Assembly (NCBI GenBank): GCA_020062545.1
Contig: JAGUWD010000007.1
Coordinates: 1 to 64,000 of the forward strand
Origin: Thermodesulfovibrionales bacterium
GTDB taxonomy: Bacteria; Nitrospirota; Thermodesulfovibrionia; Thermodesulfovibrionales; Dissulfurispiraceae
Reading direction: 5' to 3'
DNA: 64,000 nucleotides
The notes under the pieces are model-generated. The model was not told the origin of the DNA. It worked only from the letters and a program-made list of their open reading frames with translations, and searched no databases. The position numbers and the translations under genes were made by a program. Positions 13,218-48,957 of this stretch are shown piece after piece (position 1 is the first letter of the stretch; every line of letters starts with the position of its first letter).

Positions 13218-14055
13218 TGCTCCTCCTGAAATATCTTGCTAAGACCTTTTCAATGTTGTTTATGATGCTGTCCTTTGCATTTATTATAAATATCTTTGGC
13301 CTCTCTGTCTGTATCTCGAAAAGCTCGCGCTCTATCCTTATAACTTCCGGGGGCTCTGAAAACCTGAGCTTCAGCTCATCCTCGAACATTGGGACCATCT
13401 TGTCCTTCATCCTTAGCTCCGTATCCATGAAGAATATGGCTATCTCCGGCATGAGGTCATAAACCCTGTCTAAAAAGGCAGAAACCTCTTTTTGGTATAC
13501 CTGCTTTGGAGGCGAGGACTTAATCTCCATGTAAAGGATTGAGCCGTCTATCTTTGCGAGGAGATCATAATCGCCGCCTATTCCTGGCCTTTTCATCTTT
13601 ACTCCCCATACGGCCTCCGAAGCGAATTCCCTTTTGAATATCTCTGCAACAAACCACTCAAGGGTTTCTCCAAAACTCTTGATAGGGCCTTTTTTAAGCC
13701 TATGGGCATTATTTTCGGGTGCAGCAAGTCTTGTTTTGACAAGATAGCTTATGTATTCGTCTGTAACCTCTTTTGTTGCGTACCGCGTCACCTGCTGAAG
13801 TGTAAACAGTGGCTGGTGCTTGATTACATCCCGCAGGAAGAGCCTGAAGGAATATCGTTTGAGCATCTCATAATATCCGTCAATAAATTTTTTTTCAGGG
13901 ATTAGAAGGTCATCTGAAGGTTCTTTCTTATAGATTCTAAAACCTCGTCTTTTGAGGATTGCAGACAGAGACGGGGTTAATTCGTTTAAGGCCTCTCTGA
14001 GCCGTTTAACCTCTGATCTGAGAAAATCGATCTCTGTTTCTTTTTCTTTAGACAC
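13210..14055 (-). CDS. Hypothetical protein with nuclease-like core (coiled-coil N-terminus, GGDYDLLAKIDGSILYMEIKSSPP)
   Basis: D...ExK pattern of PD-(D/E)XK-like folds. Confidence 0.7.
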   Translation of the reverse strand: MSKEKETEIDFLRSEVKRLREALNELTPSLSAILKRRGFRIYKKEPSDDLLIPEKKFIDGYYEMLKRYSFRLFLRDVIKHQPLFTLQQVTRYATKEVTDEYISYLVKTRLAAPENNAHRLKKGPIKSFGETLEWFVAEIFKREFASEAVWGVKMKRPGIGGDYDLLAKIDGSILYMEIKSSPPKQVYQKEVSAFLDRVYDLMPEIAIFFMDTELRMKDKMVPMFEDELKLRFSEPPEVIRIERELFEIQTERPKIFIINAKDSIINNIEKVLARYFRRSNG

Positions 14056-41514: not shown

Positions 41515-42420
41515 ATGGGATTCTTAGACAAACTAAAATCAGGCCTTACAAAGACAAAGAAGAATATTGTCGAGAGGGTTGAGTCAATACTCCTGAGCAG
41601 GAGTATTGACGATTCAGCCATTGAAGACATCGAAGAAGTGCTTATCACATCGGATGTTGGAGCAGAGGCTACAGATGAGATAGTAAGCCTTCTTAGAGAA
41701 AAAGTAAAATCTGGTGAAGTGAAGAACCCAGATGATGTAAAGTCCTGTTTAAAAAACGAAATGGCTCTATTGCTCGGCAAATCCCAGCCACTTGTAACCT
41801 TCGGAGAAAAGCCATTTGTAATCCTTACAGTTGGCGTCAACGGCGTGGGCAAAACCACGACCATAGGCAAGCTTGCATCGAGATTCGTATCTGAAGGAAA
41901 TACTGTAATCCTTGCTGCTGCGGATACATTCAGGGCTGCTGCAATAGAACAACTCGAAATATGGGCGAAGCGCTCAGGAGCGGATATAATCAAGCACCAG
42001 AGCGGCTCTGACCCTGCTGCCGTTGCCTTTGATGCTGTGGAGGCTGCAAAGGCGAGGGGAATCGATATAGTCATCATTGATACAGCAGGAAGGCTCCACA
42101 CAAAGAGCCACCTTATGGATGAACTTAAAAAGATTAACCGTGTCATCAAAAAATCCATACCCGATGCACCGCAGGAGATTCTTCTTATAGTTGATGCAAC
42201 AACAGGTCAAAATGCCTTGAGGCAGGCGCAGATATTCAACGAGGCAATAGGCATAACAGGCATTGCCCTTACAAAACTCGATGGCACTGCAAAGGGCGGG
42301 ATTATCTTTGCTATAAAGAAAGAGCTTGGCATACCTGTAAGGCTTATCGGCATAGGCGAGGGAGTTGACGACCTCAAAGATTTCGATCCCGAGGATTTTG
42401 TTACTGCCCTGTTTGAGTAA
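41515..42420 (+). CDS. ftsY: Signal recognition particle receptor FtsY
   Basis: VGVNGVGKTTTIGKLASRF; DTAGRLHTKSHLMDELKKI; TKLDGTAKGGIIFAI. Confidence 0.97.
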   Translation: MGFLDKLKSGLTKTKKNIVERVESILLSRSIDDSAIEDIEEVLITSDVGAEATDEIVSLLREKVKSGEVKNPDDVKSCLKNEMALLLGKSQPLVTFGEKPFVILTVGVNGVGKTTTIGKLASRFVSEGNTVILAAADTFRAAAIEQLEIWAKRSGADIIKHQSGSDPAAVAFDAVEAAKARGIDIVIIDTAGRLHTKSHLMDELKKINRVIKKSIPDAPQEILLIVDATTGQNALRQAQIFNEAIGITGIALTKLDGTAKGGIIFAIKKELGIPVRLIGIGEGVDDLKDFDPEDFVTALFE

Positions 42421-42533
42421 TAATTAGGCTCACCGTATAAATATCAAATTTAAACTTCCATATACCCCTAATTTTCACTGCCATGGTGTTGGCAATGTGG
42501 TCTGCTAAGCTTTCTTTAGGTAGGAGGTGCGGC

Positions 42534-43046
42534 ATGTTAAACAGAAGGGATATATTAAAGATTGCGGGGGCTTTTTGTGGTTTTGGCTTGACCAGCTTTT
42601 CTGCTACAGGCTTAAAAGCAAACAATGAGACAAAAGAAGAACCATTTATTTATTATTCTACAATCCATCCTGACGGCAGGATAATTATCCCGCAACTGCT
42701 CAGAAATAAAGTGAAGATGAAAGGCTACAGTAATGTATATATAGCACTGCATGTTTTTGACGACTGCATAAATATCTACTCTCAGCATGAATGGGATTGT
42801 CTGAAAGAAAAGATAAACAAAAATCTTAACGGCCCGACCAAGGGATATGCTGAGTATTTTATCGAGAGGGTCATCTCTTCTGTTCAGGGGACAAAAATAG
42901 ATAATCATGGCCGGATGTTTGTCAGTGATGAACTCAGAAATCATGTGGGTATTGGTGTTGGTGAAGACATTATAATACTGGACAGAGACCGTAAAATCGA
43001 GATCTGGAGCATGAAAAAATGGTATCCGGAAAAATTCAGGTCATGA
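42534..43046 (+). CDS. MraZ/SpoVT-AbrB-fold protein with N-terminal twin-arginine signal-like sequence
   Basis: MLNRRDILKIAGAFCGFGLTSFSATGLKA (RRDILK Tat-like motif + hydrophobic stretch), then two MraZ half-repeats HPDGRIIIPQLLRNKV and DNHGRMFVSDELRNHVGI, ending RKIEIWSMKKW. SD GGAGG upstream of the ATG. Confidence 0.82.
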   Translation: MLNRRDILKIAGAFCGFGLTSFSATGLKANNETKEEPFIYYSTIHPDGRIIIPQLLRNKVKMKGYSNVYIALHVFDDCINIYSQHEWDCLKEKINKNLNGPTKGYAEYFIERVISSVQGTKIDNHGRMFVSDELRNHVGIGVGEDIIILDRDRKIEIWSMKKWYPEKFRS

Positions 43047-43082
43047 AGCGGGTATATATAAAATTCAGATGGAGGGGCTGTC

Positions 43083-44009
43083 ATGTCATATAAATTCGAC
43101 TCTTTGATTATGATCCTCAATAAACTGGACAGTAAGGAAGAGGTGACGGTGCATTCCCTAATGAATGACCTCGAGATGAGCCAGAGGACTATATACCGTT
43201 ATATACAGACCTTGCAGATAGCCGGATTTCCGATTATTTATGACAGGGAAAAAGAGAGCTATGTTTTTAGCGAAGGTTATAGCTTAAGAAAGCCAAAATT
43301 GTCAGTTGAAGAAACCCTAACCCTTGCTCTTTCAAAAAAACTGCTAAAAAATTTCGGCCCTGACATAGAGAAGAGTCTTGGCAGCATAGAAGAGAAGCTT
43401 TCAGTTAAGAATGCCGACATCCCAAAGCACATTGTCCTTACTGCCGAAGAGATGCCGGCTTTTGTTGGCGCCAATCTTGGCATTATCCATCATGCAAGAA
43501 CAAACTATCAGAGGATTGAAATCGTTTACAGGGCATTGTATTCTGATGAAGAAACAGTGCGTAAGGTTGACCCTTATTATCTCTTTTTTCAAGATGGCTT
43601 CTGGCATTTAAGAGGATACTGCCATCTGAGAGAGGAGTTAAGAACATTCGCACTTGACAGGATAATATCAGTTAAAATTCTCAATGAATACTTCATCCCG
43701 CAGAATATCTCTCCTGAAGACGAGCTTTCCGGTGCATTCGGTACGATGGTCGATGGAGAGCCGGTTGAAGTAGTGCTAAGATTTGACGCTGATATTAAGC
43801 CATATGTCTTGAGAAAAAAATGGCATAAGAGCCAAAAAGAAAGAGAACTCAAGGACGGTTCCCTCGAAATGACATTTACCGTAAATGGTACCAATGGCAT
43901 AAAACCGTGGATTTATCAATGGCTGCCGCATGTGGATGTGGGTGAGCCGGAAGAATTAAAAAGGCTCGTTGATAAGGATTTAAAAGAAGCGGCAAAAAGG
44001 AACGGATGA
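43083..44009 (+). CDS. HTH + WYL-domain transcriptional regulator
   Basis: N-term HTH (VHSLMNDLEMSQRTIYRYIQTLQIAGFPI), WYL region VYRALYSDEETVRKVDPYYLFFQDGFWHLRGYCHLREELRTFALDRI. Confidence 0.92.
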   Translation: MSYKFDSLIMILNKLDSKEEVTVHSLMNDLEMSQRTIYRYIQTLQIAGFPIIYDREKESYVFSEGYSLRKPKLSVEETLTLALSKKLLKNFGPDIEKSLGSIEEKLSVKNADIPKHIVLTAEEMPAFVGANLGIIHHARTNYQRIEIVYRALYSDEETVRKVDPYYLFFQDGFWHLRGYCHLREELRTFALDRIISVKILNEYFIPQNISPEDELSGAFGTMVDGEPVEVVLRFDADIKPYVLRKKWHKSQKERELKDGSLEMTFTVNGTNGIKPWIYQWLPHVDVGEPEELKRLVDKDLKEAAKRNG

Positions 44010-44194
44010 AATTAGTTTGGCTTATGCGCAATCTTGCACTTAGACAGCAAATAAAATATGAGCGTGAAAGAAGACGCTTGATTAAACTTATCCTCGTGCC
44101 TCTTGTTGTCTTGCTTGCAATAGTTATAGCTATGAACCTCGGAAGGCTGTTTAAAACTGCCTATCAGCTTTTACAGTCAGCGGTTTGTAGGTGA
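44006..44194 (+). CDS. Small single-TM basic protein
   Basis: 4-bp overlap with the WYL gene; RRRLIKLILVPLVVLLAIVIAMNL. Confidence 0.6.
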   Translation: MKLVWLMRNLALRQQIKYERERRRLIKLILVPLVVLLAIVIAMNLGRLFKTAYQLLQSAVCR

Positions 44195-44463
44195 TGAGAT
44201 TTTTTATCTTATGTTTTATCCCGTAATAATCGAAACAGGTTTCTTCGCTGATTGAATAAGGGCAGGAAAATTTACATCAGCCAAGAGTAATAATTCAAAC
44301 TGCTTAAATAGTAAATGTGTCCAAGTTTTGACGAATCAAAGTTTTTGAGATTATCCATAATGACAAGTGACGTATCTGGCTGTACATTGAAAAGCAGTAT
44401 AATTATGCAAAAAATCAAAAGATCATTGAAAAACAGGGATGTCCAAAATGGCATCTATACAAA

Positions 44464-44967
44464 TTACAGATCTTTATTTAATACAGGTAGTCTGCCTGTG
44501 ACTCGAACATGGATAGATAACAGATACTTTTCTAATGCCAAAGCTAAAAGTGTTTTCTCAGAGACAAGTTTAATTGTATAGACAACCAGTTCTCCATCAG
44601 CAATTTGCCTTTTGATATCAGCAGGCACATCAGCATCGCTATGCCAATCATTGTATTTAAACCGTGGGGTGCACACCTCTCGCGAATTTGGTTCATATAT
44701 AAGACCCATATGCTTCCATACCCTGCCACCTAAGTCCCCTTCGCTTTTCCCGATATACCAGATATCTCTCTGACAACTTTCTATTGGGATATTCCAGTTA
44801 TCAGAGAGTGCCTCTGCATATAAATAAATACCTGTGCAGTCCCCAAAAGGTACTTTTTCTCCCTTGTGGAAATTAAAGTGCCACGGCTTACTATACTGAA
44901 CATTTGCTTCAATGCCTTGAATTTTGATGAAATTCTCAATATGGCTTCTAATATCCTTAACCTTCAT
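44464..44967 (-). CDS. GIY-YIG-like nuclease-domain protein
   Basis: GIYLYAEAL...DIWYIGKSEGDLGGRVWKH...RLPVLNKDL. Confidence 0.65.
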   Translation of the reverse strand: MKVKDIRSHIENFIKIQGIEANVQYSKPWHFNFHKGEKVPFGDCTGIYLYAEALSDNWNIPIESCQRDIWYIGKSEGDLGGRVWKHMGLIYEPNSREVCTPRFKYNDWHSDADVPADIKRQIADGELVVYTIKLVSEKTLLALALEKYLLSIHVRVTGRLPVLNKDL

Positions 44968-45219
44968 AAGTTTCTACCTATTCAATTTTGCAATTATAAC
45001 ATGAAGCTCCAAATGAAGCACAAGAGGCAGAAGAGGAGCATACAACAATTTTATCTAACTCCGGCTAATGCTTTATTTCAGTCACGGTAAATCCGCAGTG
45101 AATCATTGACAATTGAAAATTGAAAATGTCCTCAATAATAGAGCAGTCTTTAAGACTGCCATACTGCTGGCAGCAGGATATGTTATTTTCTTAATAAATC
45201 TTATTTTGGATGGAAAGAC

Positions 45220-45594
45220 ATGATAGAGAAAAAGGTCGGCATCTTCTTTTTTGTTGAAAACGAGATATTAATGGATGCTGTGCCTGTTGCGAATGGTGAG
45301 CCTTATGGAGATGCAATTCAGTACAGCAGCCATTATGAATTCTGGGAAAGTCTTGTACCCAGAACAATAACCGAAAGGGAATTCAAGGCAAGGGCGTATG
45401 ATGCTCATCCTCGGGGAAGGGTTGTGTATTTCCCGAAGAAAAAGAAGTTCTGCATCTATCATGACGCATGCCTGAAATCAAATGCTGAACTCAGCAAAGT
45501 AGTAGAAAACTTTGGACTGAAAGACATGGATGCCGAATTTGCAAATGACGAACATTACAAATGCGCCGGATGCAATCCTTATTTTCTTGATTAA
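45220..45594 (+). CDS. Hypothetical protein (124 aa)
   Basis: Intact ORF in the accessory island. Confidence 0.65.
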   Translation: MIEKKVGIFFFVENEILMDAVPVANGEPYGDAIQYSSHYEFWESLVPRTITEREFKARAYDAHPRGRVVYFPKKKKFCIYHDACLKSNAELSKVVENFGLKDMDAEFANDEHYKCAGCNPYFLD

Positions 45595-45635: not shown

Positions 45636-46070
45636 ATGAAAGAAGAATTAGGAGTAAGATTTAAAGGCGGTATCATAGAAGGCACTATACAAAATATGGA
45701 AACAGGAGAGATTTCAAATGTAAGGCATTATCTGTTCTGCACTGACCTTGAGTTCTTTACAATTGCAAAAATAGAGCGTGTGGATAGTTTTAAACTACCG
45801 GACAATTCATGTCAGATTTCGGTTGATTGCAGCGGACTGGACAGCATAGGACAGGTTTTTAAATTGGATCTGAACTTCTTTCCTGAATCTGTAGAGACAA
45901 AAGACAGGCTGCTTGAAGATTTGAAGGTTGATTCTATCTTTGTTGTTAGAGGGGCGTATGGCATAATAGACAATCCACCTCTTATTACCTTAACCGACCC
46001 TCATTACGAACCTGTTTATTCTCGGTCTCTTGAAAATGAGATAAGGGAGGTTTTCAAAGTAAATAAGTGA
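45636..46070 (+). CDS. Hypothetical protein (144 aa)
   Basis: Intact ORF, RBS GAGGAGG upstream of the ATG. Confidence 0.7.
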   Translation: MKEELGVRFKGGIIEGTIQNMETGEISNVRHYLFCTDLEFFTIAKIERVDSFKLPDNSCQISVDCSGLDSIGQVFKLDLNFFPESVETKDRLLEDLKVDSIFVVRGAYGIIDNPPLITLTDPHYEPVYSRSLENEIREVFKVNK

Positions 46071-46147: not shown

Positions 46148-46438
46148 ATGCCGATTATCGAAAAACATTGTGAGGAATCCATTCAATTATTTGGAAAACC
46201 TTATGCAGAAATCCATAAGTGGCTTGATGAATTTGCCGGAAGCAAGGAATATGGCTACAGGCACAGAAGAAAACGACACCATGAAGATGGCATCCGTCAG
46301 GTTATATAGCTTTTCGGAATAGAAGCAGGTGAAGCGGCAAGACAGCACATAATCTTTGATCTGAAGGAGGATGGCTGGACTGATAGAGATCGATTTCCGA
46401 AGGATGAGAGAGATTATATTGAAATGGGGCTGTTTTGA
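46148..46438 (+). pseudogene. DUF6915-like protein interrupted by one in-frame TAG
   Basis: MPIIEKHCEESIQLFGKPYAEIHKWLDEFAGSKEYGYRHRRKRHHEDGIRQVI*LFGIEAGEAARQHIIFDLKEDGWTDRDRFPKDERDYIEMGLF*: the frame continues coherently after the stop. Confidence 0.7.
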
Positions 46439-46511
46439 CTGCCACACTGCTGGCAACAGCATGGGTTATAATGAGCTATAAACACCAAACCTGAATGGAG
46501 GTTTAATCATA

Positions 46512-47987
46512 ATGACACTTGATAAGAACGCTTTTCTCAGTAAATCCCTTTTCCTCAGAGGGCTCAGGTGTTACAAGTCCCTTTATCTTCATAAATACCA
46601 GCCTGAGTTAAGGGGTGAAGTTCCTGAATTTCAGAATTCTCTACTTGAAAGTGGCATGGATGTTGGGATGTATGCCAGAAAATTATTTCCTGATGGAATA
46701 GAGATTCCTTTTGATGAGATGTCAATCGCAGAGCAGATTGATAAGACAAAGAAGACAATTGATGTAGGGGCAACGACATTATATGAGGCGGCATTTAATT
46801 ATGATGATGTATTTATTAAGGCCGATATCTTGCACAAAGGCAAGGGAGGATGGAAAATATACGAGGTAAAATCTTCCACATCTGTTAAAGATTATCATCT
46901 TGAAGATATTGCAGTTCAGTATTATGTCATAAAAGGCATAGGACTTCCTGTTTCAAAGGTATGTCTTGCCCATATAAACAACCAGTATGTGAGGAATGGG
47001 GAGATAGAGGTTGATGAGCTATTTGCCATTGTCGATTTAACTGATTCTGTGATAGAAAAACAGGACTTTATCAAAGACGAAATTGAAAAGATGAGGGATA
47101 TATTAAAGGACAGCATGCCGGATATAGAGATTGGCAAACATTGCTCCGAACATTACGATTGCGACTTTAAGGGACATTGCTGGAAGCATATACCTGAAAA
47201 CTCTATTTTCAGCATAGAAAGCAACTGGATAGATAAATTTTCATACTATAGACAGGGAATAGTGCATTTTGAAGACCTGCCAATGGATAAGTTAAACAAT
47301 AAACAGAGGATGTATGTTGAGGCATTTCTTGAGAAAAAGGATTTTGTTGAAAGGGAAGAAATAGAAAACTTTCTCTCTGCACTGTGGTATCCAATGTATT
47401 TTCTTGATTTTGAGACATTCTATACTTCTATTCCGTTGTATGAGGGGACAAGACCATACCAGCAGATTCCCTTTCAATATTCTCTACATTACATTGAAAA
47501 TAAAGGGGCTAATCCCAAACACTCTGAATATGTTGCCGCTCCGAATTGTGATCCAAGAAAGGAACTATTGGAAAAGCTTTTAGCTGAAATACCTACCAAT
47601 GCATGTGTAATTGTCTATAACCAAACCTTTGAAAAAGGCGTACTAAAGGGACTTGCCGAAGCTTTTCCTGCATATGCAGACTGGATTGTGCCTTTTATCG
47701 AAAATATAAGGGACTTGATGGTTCCTTTCAGAAGAAAAGCCCTCTATCATTGGCAAATGTATGGTTCGCATTCCATAAAGGCCGTTCTTCCTGCGCTTAT
47801 ACCTGAATTGAGCTATGAAGGATTGGAAATAGCTGACGGAGGCATGGCAATGGATGCATATTTTCACATGTGCCGGTCAAAAGACCCTGATGAAATAGAA
47901 AAAATCCGCACATCATTGCTTGAATACTGCAGACTCGATACGCTTGCAATGGTGAGGATACTGGAGAGGCTATACAAGCTTAAGTAG
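46512..47987 (+). CDS. DUF2779-family predicted nuclease (PD-(D/E)XK-like + RNase H-like exonuclease)
   Basis: [73 protein letters not shown]. Confidence 0.88.
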
Positions 47988-48957
47988 CTGTTTGAGTAAG
48001 GCTTCCGATTTTTCTGATCTTTTTATATCTCTCTTCTATCAACTTCGCAGGGCTTTTTGATTGGAGTGGTTCCAGAGACTTCAAGATATATTCTACTAAC
48101 CTTTTTGCTGTTGTTTCTGGCTCCCTGTGTGCGCCGCCGAGGGGCTCAGGAATAATGTCATCGATAATCTTGAATGACTTCAAATCATCGGCAGTGAGTT
48201 TCAATGCGTCTGCTGCCCTTGAGAAGTCATCGGCAGTAAGCTCCCCACCTTTTCTCCATAGAATAGCTGCACAACCTTCAGGCGAGATTACTGAATATAC
48301 AGAATGCTCCAACATGTAAAGTCTATCTGCAATGCTTAATGCAAGGGCGCCACCGCTTCCACCTTCGCCTATCACTATGGAGATTACCGGGGTTCTGATC
48401 CTCGACATCTCCATGAGATTTGTTGCTATTGCCTCTGCCTGCCCTCTCTCCTCAGCGCCTATTCCTGGATAAGCCCCTGGCGTATCGATAAAGGTCACGA
48501 TAGGCATCTTAAATCTCTCTGCCAGTTTCATTAATCTCAGCGCCTTTCTGTATCCTTCTGGATTGGGCTGCCCGAAGTTTCTGAATATCCTTTCCTTTGT
48601 GCCTCTGCCTTTCTGATGACCAATAATGACCATAGGGATACCGTTAATCTTTCCAACTCCCCCTACAATTGCAGGGTCATCCGCGAATCTTCTGTCTCCG
48701 TGCAGTTCGATGAAATCCTCAACTATCATACCGATATAATCGAGTGTGTACGGCCTTTCGGGATGGCGCGCTATCATGGTCTTTTGCCACGGAGTGAGAT
48801 TTGAAAATATCTCTGAGCGTAATTCCTTTGCCTTTTTTTCGAGGCGCTTTATTTCCGATGCTATATCTATTTCCGTGCCATCGGAAAGCTTTCTAAGTTC
48901 TTCAATCTTTGTTTCGAGGTCTTCTAATGGTTTTTCAAAATCAAGGTAATAACCCAT
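47980..48957 (-). CDS. accA: Acetyl-CoA carboxylase carboxyltransferase subunit alpha
   Basis: [51 protein letters not shown]. Confidence 0.97.

Follow-up and report, generated by a model that had tools for sequence, protein, structure and literature searches.

The gene at positions 42534..43046 (forward strand) of the window, the whole 64-kb stretch of DNA analysed here, encodes a divergent MraZ-family protein of 170 amino acids that begins with a predicted twin-arginine (Tat) signal. A preliminary description of this DNA had already pointed to this open reading frame, which we confirm together with its sequence, and had raised the idea of an exported MraZ: the observation of an MraZ with a Tat signal is real and unusual, and the idea of its export is plausible, judging from the N-terminal sequence. 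To this we add a mobile island, the repeat that flanks it, an operator that ties the gene to a WYL regulator, and a second division-protein domain with a Tat-like start in another genome. In the reading that we favor, at roughly even odds (a probability of about 0.5), Tat-MraZ would be an orphan, Tat-targeted paralogue of MraZ, carried by a mobile island, switched by the WYL regulator, and acting on the cell envelope or on division rather than on the dcw cluster. The homology and fold, the signal motif, the paralogy, the island, the operator and the link of this operator to one WYL subfamily were all computed, as detailed below.

The assignment to the MraZ family rests on both profile and fold. 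Pfam model PF02381 matches the protein over two stretches with 52.8 bits, for a cut-off of 23, and a genome-wide search recovers each half, with 28.6 and 26.1 bits: the two halves recognized in the preliminary description are thus found by both approaches. That description had also suggested a structure prediction. The AF2 model, built from 40 aligned sequences, turns out to be MraZ-like: it has a pLDDT of 81, the values being about 90 and above over the greater part of the domain and dropping under 50 at residues 16-34, and its top 16 PDB matches in Foldseek are all MraZ (E from 3e-10 to 3e-6), among them the M. genitalium MraZ-promoter complexes.

Like MraZ (PF02381, TIGR00242), the protein has two SpoVT-AbrB-like halves, their GR arginines and the fold. 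Residues G48, R49, P53, R57, C78, D123, R127, W158 and W163 are invariant in 39 canonical relatives and are kept here. It differs from these relatives in 17 of 40 conserved columns, including D45H, K47D, R111E and P131S. The first half (42648..42824, forward strand, pLDDT mostly about 90) carries the motif HPDGR, in which the two changed positions are occupied by D and K in all aligned canonical relatives; because of D45H, this half loses the DxxxR motif that the second half (42885..43022, forward strand) retains as DNHGR. The C-terminal tail is shortened, and the score of 47.1 bits against the equivalog model TIGR00242 does not reach its cut-off of 98.35. Three further differences from MraZ, the Tat-like N-terminus, a site outside the dcw cluster and a missing GTGG-repeat box, are taken up in the following paragraphs. 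Retention of both GR arginines is what would be expected if DNA binding were still under selection; it would fit poorly with a role in the periplasm, and counts against one.

The start of the gene is fixed at the ATG at 42534 by a strong Shine-Dalgarno sequence, AGGAGGTG (42522..42529, forward strand), that ends 4 nucleotides before it. As the preliminary description had stated, no ATG lies in frame between signal and domain: the methionine that follows is residue 62, within the MraZ domain. The sole alternative start, a TTG at 42588, lies inside the signal and lacks a good Shine-Dalgarno sequence, and on these grounds we reject an internal start that would remove the signal. An in-frame ATG upstream, at 42483, falls within the palindromic operator at 42477..42496, and is for this reason an unlikely start.

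The predicted signal, MLNRRDILKIAGAFCGFGLTSFSATGLKA (42534..42620, forward strand), contains the motif NRRDILK followed by 18 uncharged residues. Among random N-termini, 0.05% have a TATFIND-like motif with at least 13 uncharged residues, and none of 400,000 has the full form S/T/N/D-RR-x-Phi-L-K. The Pfam model TAT_signal scores between 13.4 and 17.0 bits, under its cut-off of 22.7, and this counts against an explanation by Tat export. The pattern RRD-[FIL]-L-K occurs at 11 sites of the genome, and, besides Tat-MraZ, at least 5 of the 11 lie where a well-formed open frame begins. These include a formate-dehydrogenase-like (FdhA-like) protein, two of molybdopterin type and a 4Fe-4S protein, functions being read from the sequence; a sample start from this genome that is similar to that of Tat-MraZ is MGVSRRDFLKISGG. 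The genome also encodes TatC. Tat-MraZ shares with these molybdopterin and Fe-S enzymes the N-terminal RRD[FIL]LK signal and the placement of the Shine-Dalgarno sequence, but differs from such ordinary Tat substrates in its cargo, a fold of DNA-binding type without cofactor. The DNA of the signal matches no other gene of the genome, and we reject the hypothesis that it was copied from one. The motif, and its likeness to the N-termini of the genome's own Tat substrates, bear out the earlier claim of a Tat-like signal, and make export of the protein a plausible prediction.

A rival reading holds that this twin-arginine N-terminus is unused: the protein would be a second DNA-binding MraZ, one that stays in the cytoplasm, loosely at the membrane, and either helps to regulate the island or acts as a competitor of the canonical MraZ. 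The low TAT_signal score agrees with it, as do the retained fold and residues G48, R49, R57, D123 and R127, and regulators are commonly encoded beside their targets. It must nevertheless accommodate a start that includes the signal and has a strong Shine-Dalgarno sequence, an N-terminus that matches those of real Tat substrates of the same genome, the 17 altered columns with D45H and K47D among them, and the lack of a GTGG box before the gene; we hold it to be somewhat unlikely. A variant of this reading turns export into an off-switch. Since Tat transports folded proteins, a folded regulator could be removed in this way: the precursor would act in the cytoplasm until exported, and its activity would report on Tat capacity or on membrane energization, much as export of FlgM reports on flagellar assembly. 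The combination of a preserved DNA-binding face with a good Tat signal is what such a switch would require, but the argument proceeds by analogy, for a singleton gene, and we regard this variant as very improbable.

The preliminary description had also suggested looking for a canonical mraZ elsewhere in the genome. There is one, on contig C19, upstream of rsmH, ftsI and murE, so that the hypothesis of a genome lacking the canonical gene is rejected. The canonical gene thus takes the dcw place, while Tat-mraZ lies between ftsY and accA. The promoter of the canonical gene contains three GTGG repeats with a period of 10 bp, the MraZ box, and no such box precedes Tat-mraZ. From these two facts, the presence of a canonical mraZ with rsmH elsewhere and the missing box, we conclude that Tat-MraZ, as far as gene context tells, is not the dcw regulator.

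PF02381 matches 153 of the 176 genomes of the order, and this genome is the only one of the 176 with four domain matches, that is, with two MraZ proteins. No Tat-tagged orthologue was found in 31 genomes of the family, 176 of the order and 396 of the phylum, nor in GTDB contigs; the viral contigs, phages and plasmids searched contain only ordinary MraZ without signal, and the matches labeled as phage look like host DNA within phage records. In 80 MraZ loci whose downstream genes were examined, 79 have rsmH, and none has a Tat-like start. With a single sequence at hand, conservation of the signal cannot be demonstrated, which counts against our preferred reading. Tat-MraZ is 39% identical to the resident MraZ. 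In a phylogenetic tree it lies among Nitrospirota sequences, apart from the resident protein; its branch is very long, at 2.72 changes per site, and its position is therefore unsure. This identity and this branch lead us to reject a recent duplication of the resident mraZ.

A singleton on so long a branch, with a shortened C-terminal tail and altered conserved columns, could also be the result of chance: a Tat start fused to a stray mraZ in a mobile island, transcribed because it stands before a WYL gene, with no selected function. Yet the frame is open over 170 codons, both halves are foldable and keep their key residues, and the Shine-Dalgarno sequence is strong. Moreover, in a separate island, discussed below, the same operator precedes a gene in which a Tat signal is joined to the domain of another division protein, and a single accident does not suffice to explain both. 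We consider a chance fusion unlikely.

Downstream of Tat-mraZ, the layout is operon-like, as initially proposed, with Tat-mraZ as its first gene. The ATG of the next gene (43083..44009, forward strand) comes 36 bp after the stop of Tat-mraZ, and has its own GGAGG. It encodes a transcription regulator of 308 amino acids with HTH-WYL-WCX architecture (Pfam WYL 71.4, WCX 52.6 and HTH_11 34.1 bits), whose phmmer matches among PDB relatives are PafBC, a DeoR-family WYL regulator and BrxR. The stop of the WYL gene is overlapped by 4 bp, in the form ATGA, by an open frame of 62 codons (44006..44194, forward strand); such overlaps are a usual sign of coupled translation. Its product has no family match and contains one strong hydrophobic segment, with a mean Kyte-Doolittle value of 3.03; in its size and single transmembrane (TM) segment it resembles division inhibitors of the DidA/SidA type. 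A promoter scan of 42300-44600 gave nothing informative.

Both the 36-bp distance and the overlapping single-TM frame are as the preliminary description had them. Its interpretation survives in part: the MraZ fold, the Tat-like signal and the operon-like layout stand, export is a prediction, and the proposed look for a canonical mraZ has given a positive answer. Neither an MraZ nor a similar TM protein adjoins the close orthologues of the WYL gene, so that a conserved MraZ-WYL-TM trio is rejected; this missing conservation of the MraZ-WYL pair counts against the reading that we favor.

The link between Tat-mraZ and the WYL gene comes instead from a palindrome, first seen by a repeat search. 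The exact sequence TGCCA-N6-TGGCA occurs three times in the window, always in the island and each time ahead of a transcription unit: at 42477..42496, before the Tat-mraZ/WYL/TM operon; at 45155..45174, before the open frame that starts at 45220; and at 46438..46457, followed at 11 bp by a TATAAT, before the gene that starts at 46512. We call these sites putative operators. No exact copy was found in 398 kb of this genome (G000) beyond the island, nor away from WYL genes in 839 kb of this and related genomes (the 398 kb included); the other WYL loci contain 19. Of 11 close WYL orthologues, which have 41-68% identity and are scattered across the class, 10 are preceded by the operator at no more than about 130 bp, with one mismatch or none, and in the remaining one compensating changes give TGACA-N6-TGTCA; more distant WYL genes do not have it at that position.

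The 28 aligned sites yield the consensus ACTGCCA-taatgC-TGGCAGt, and 26 of them have a TAnnnT hexamer 6-12 bp behind. The operator thus stands where a -35 element would be, with a set spacing to the -10 element, as in WYL activators of the DriD/SiwR type. At Tat-mraZ, the right flank of the operator is poor, ending in AAT and not in GT, and the -10, TAAGCT, is weak, which counts against our preferred reading. Given an operator restricted to the island, and the same palindrome before close relatives of the WYL gene, Tat-mraZ very probably belongs to the WYL regulon; that the WYL protein binds this palindrome is a prediction.

Two known WYL regulators are close in design: DriD is an activator in DNA damage that recognizes a 20-bp pseudo-palindrome at promoters with a poor -35 (PMC12340889), and SiwR, also an activator in DNA damage, a 19-bp palindrome between -35 and -10 (PMC10693628). 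The island shares with the DriD-DidA system of Caulobacter a WYL regulator, a palindrome over the -35 at a fixed spacing to the -10, a small single-TM protein and a possible link to division. It differs from that system in the palindrome itself (ATACGAC-N7-GTCGTAT for DriD), in the position of the TM protein inside the WYL operon and in the added Tat-MraZ. With SiwR/PafBC and BrxR/CapW it has in common the HTH-WYL-WCX type of architecture and the control of nearby genes, as well as the palindrome in the case of SiwR, but its regulon differs in comprising nucleases and division-protein domains. Among WYL proteins there are also repressors of defence systems.

We now turn to the island itself. 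An insertion of 5.57 kb separates ftsY from accA, with the 12-bp direct repeat CTGTTTGAGTAA at both edges: the left copy (42409..42420, forward strand) is the 3' end of ftsY, stop included, as read at the junction, and the right copy (47988..47999, forward strand) is at the edge of accA. In a genome of the same genus (G001) the site is empty: the two genes are convergent, with overlapping 3' ends, and CTGTTTGAGTAA is present once. Since the repeat sits in this overlap, both genes keep their ends nearly unchanged. Judged from these flanks, the Tat-mraZ operon is part of a mobile accessory island; no integrase was recognized within it. Besides the operon, the island encodes a possible GIY-YIG nuclease (44464..44967, reverse strand), which has no Pfam match and weakly resembles a GIY-YIG protein encoded in the WYL island on L194; a 124-residue protein (45220..45594, forward strand) with a homologue behind an operator in that same island (26% identity, pairwise E=1e-14); a 144-residue protein without family match (45636..46070, forward strand); and a DUF2779 protein with RNase H-like and Cas4-like parts (46512..47987, forward strand).

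Insertion at the ftsY-accA junction has happened more than once: one genus shows two independent insertions there, each flanked by direct repeats of 12-15 bp taken from the overlapping gene ends. The second, in G003, is about 0.95 kb long, with a 15-bp repeat of the same region (L083:12443-12457 and 13422-13436), and encodes a small protein that resembles, by eye, a DUF5615/PIN-type toxin (L083:12517-12867).

The assembly is fragmented, in 47 contigs, and one might fear that a mis-assembly or a wrong start has joined a foreign signal to the MraZ domain. But the reading frame is the same throughout, a Shine-Dalgarno sequence precedes the ATG of the signal, both edges of the island are explained by the 12-bp repeat when compared to the empty site, and genes of the island have counterparts in the WYL islands of further genomes: an artefact is hardly credible.

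In related islands, the genes behind operators are the WYL gene itself and genes for DUF2779 (57% identical, in the L198 island, to that of the window), HEAT-repeat, TPR, HNH, ClpP-like and response-regulator proteins, as well as a homologue of ORF 45220. None of these islands has an MraZ or a homologue of the 62-residue protein, so that the trio is local to the window. A viral or plasmid origin is rejected, as no close relative of Tat-MraZ, of the WYL protein or of the protein that we now describe was found in the viral contigs, phages and plasmids searched. In G430 (locus L194, on contig C170), an operator with one mismatch (L194:12003-12022) precedes a gene for a protein of 178 amino acids (L194:12073-12609) that begins in a Tat-like manner, with MKRREILKGLVAAGIAMCIPRISFG, and goes on to an FtsZ C-terminal domain: PF12327 scores 26.3 bits (E 9e-6), just below its cut-off of 27, and phmmer relates it to FtsZ with E 0.003. 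Short DivIVA-domain proteins are found behind the WYL operator in two genomes (L194:9501-9728 and L197:12823-13074). That Tat signals would mark pieces of division proteins in two WYL islands was noticed after the fact, and should be read as a lead, not as proof.

Other genes of these islands may be mentioned. A gene for an AbrB-type antitoxin is divergent beside the WYL gene in two of them (L194:7025-7273 and L197:7116-7364), with a Doc-like toxin gene in L194 (6651-7028). The G430 island also encodes a 265-residue protein without Pfam match that resembles, by eye, uracil-DNA-glycosylase-like folds (L194:12617-13414), and in G011 a gene for a ClpP-like protease (L204:10148-10699) adjoins a double copy of the operator.

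Assuming that Tat-MraZ is indeed targeted as its signal predicts, the following mechanism can be proposed. The WYL regulator very probably binds the 20-bp palindrome in place of the -35 and switches the three units of the island together: how much Tat-MraZ, small TM protein and regulator is made would then be set jointly, along with the two other units. It is most likely, by analogy, an activator responsive to DNA damage or phage, like DriD or SiwR; the trigger is suggested by DriD, SiwR, PafBC, BrxR and CapW. Once the operon is induced, the MraZ domain would take its fold while still in the cytoplasm, and TatABC would then move it across the inner membrane to the outer side, where the protein would stay tethered through its signal or be freed after LKA. 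Together with the small TM protein, it would then act on the cell envelope or on the division apparatus, and not as a dcw repressor. The inferred parts of this scheme are export, whether the WYL protein activates or represses, the kind of stress that it senses and any effect on division. DriD induces DidA, a division inhibitor of 71 amino acids with a single TM segment (PMC4211646), and for the whole operon this pair is the nearest working model. The precedent, along with the FtsZ C-terminal domain with its Tat-like start and the DivIVA-domain proteins behind the same operator, counts in favor of a link to division.

It is tempting to go further and conjecture a mobile WYL regulon of the Thermodesulfovibrionia that would deploy an exported or tethered MraZ and FtsZ C-terminal domain, DivIVA-domain proteins and a DidA-like TM protein in order to halt division under DNA damage or phage attack. 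We consider this wider conjecture quite unlikely.

By its sequence and setting, Tat-MraZ is a variant of MraZ that is new to description, in a WYL-linked island; no Tat-tagged MraZ was found elsewhere in the collections or the literature searched. To our knowledge, the WYL regulon of this island was also previously undescribed. A single palindrome defines this regulon in about a dozen genomes, with a second Tat-tagged division-protein domain within, and it is this shared operator that makes the idea testable. If Tat-MraZ is exported, then either an AbrB-like DNA-binding fold would be used outside the cytoplasm, or export itself would be a regulatory step. The island points to an uncharacterized regulon for stress or defence, which may include a checkpoint on division, in the Nitrospirota, a phylum in which, as far as we know, little is known of either.
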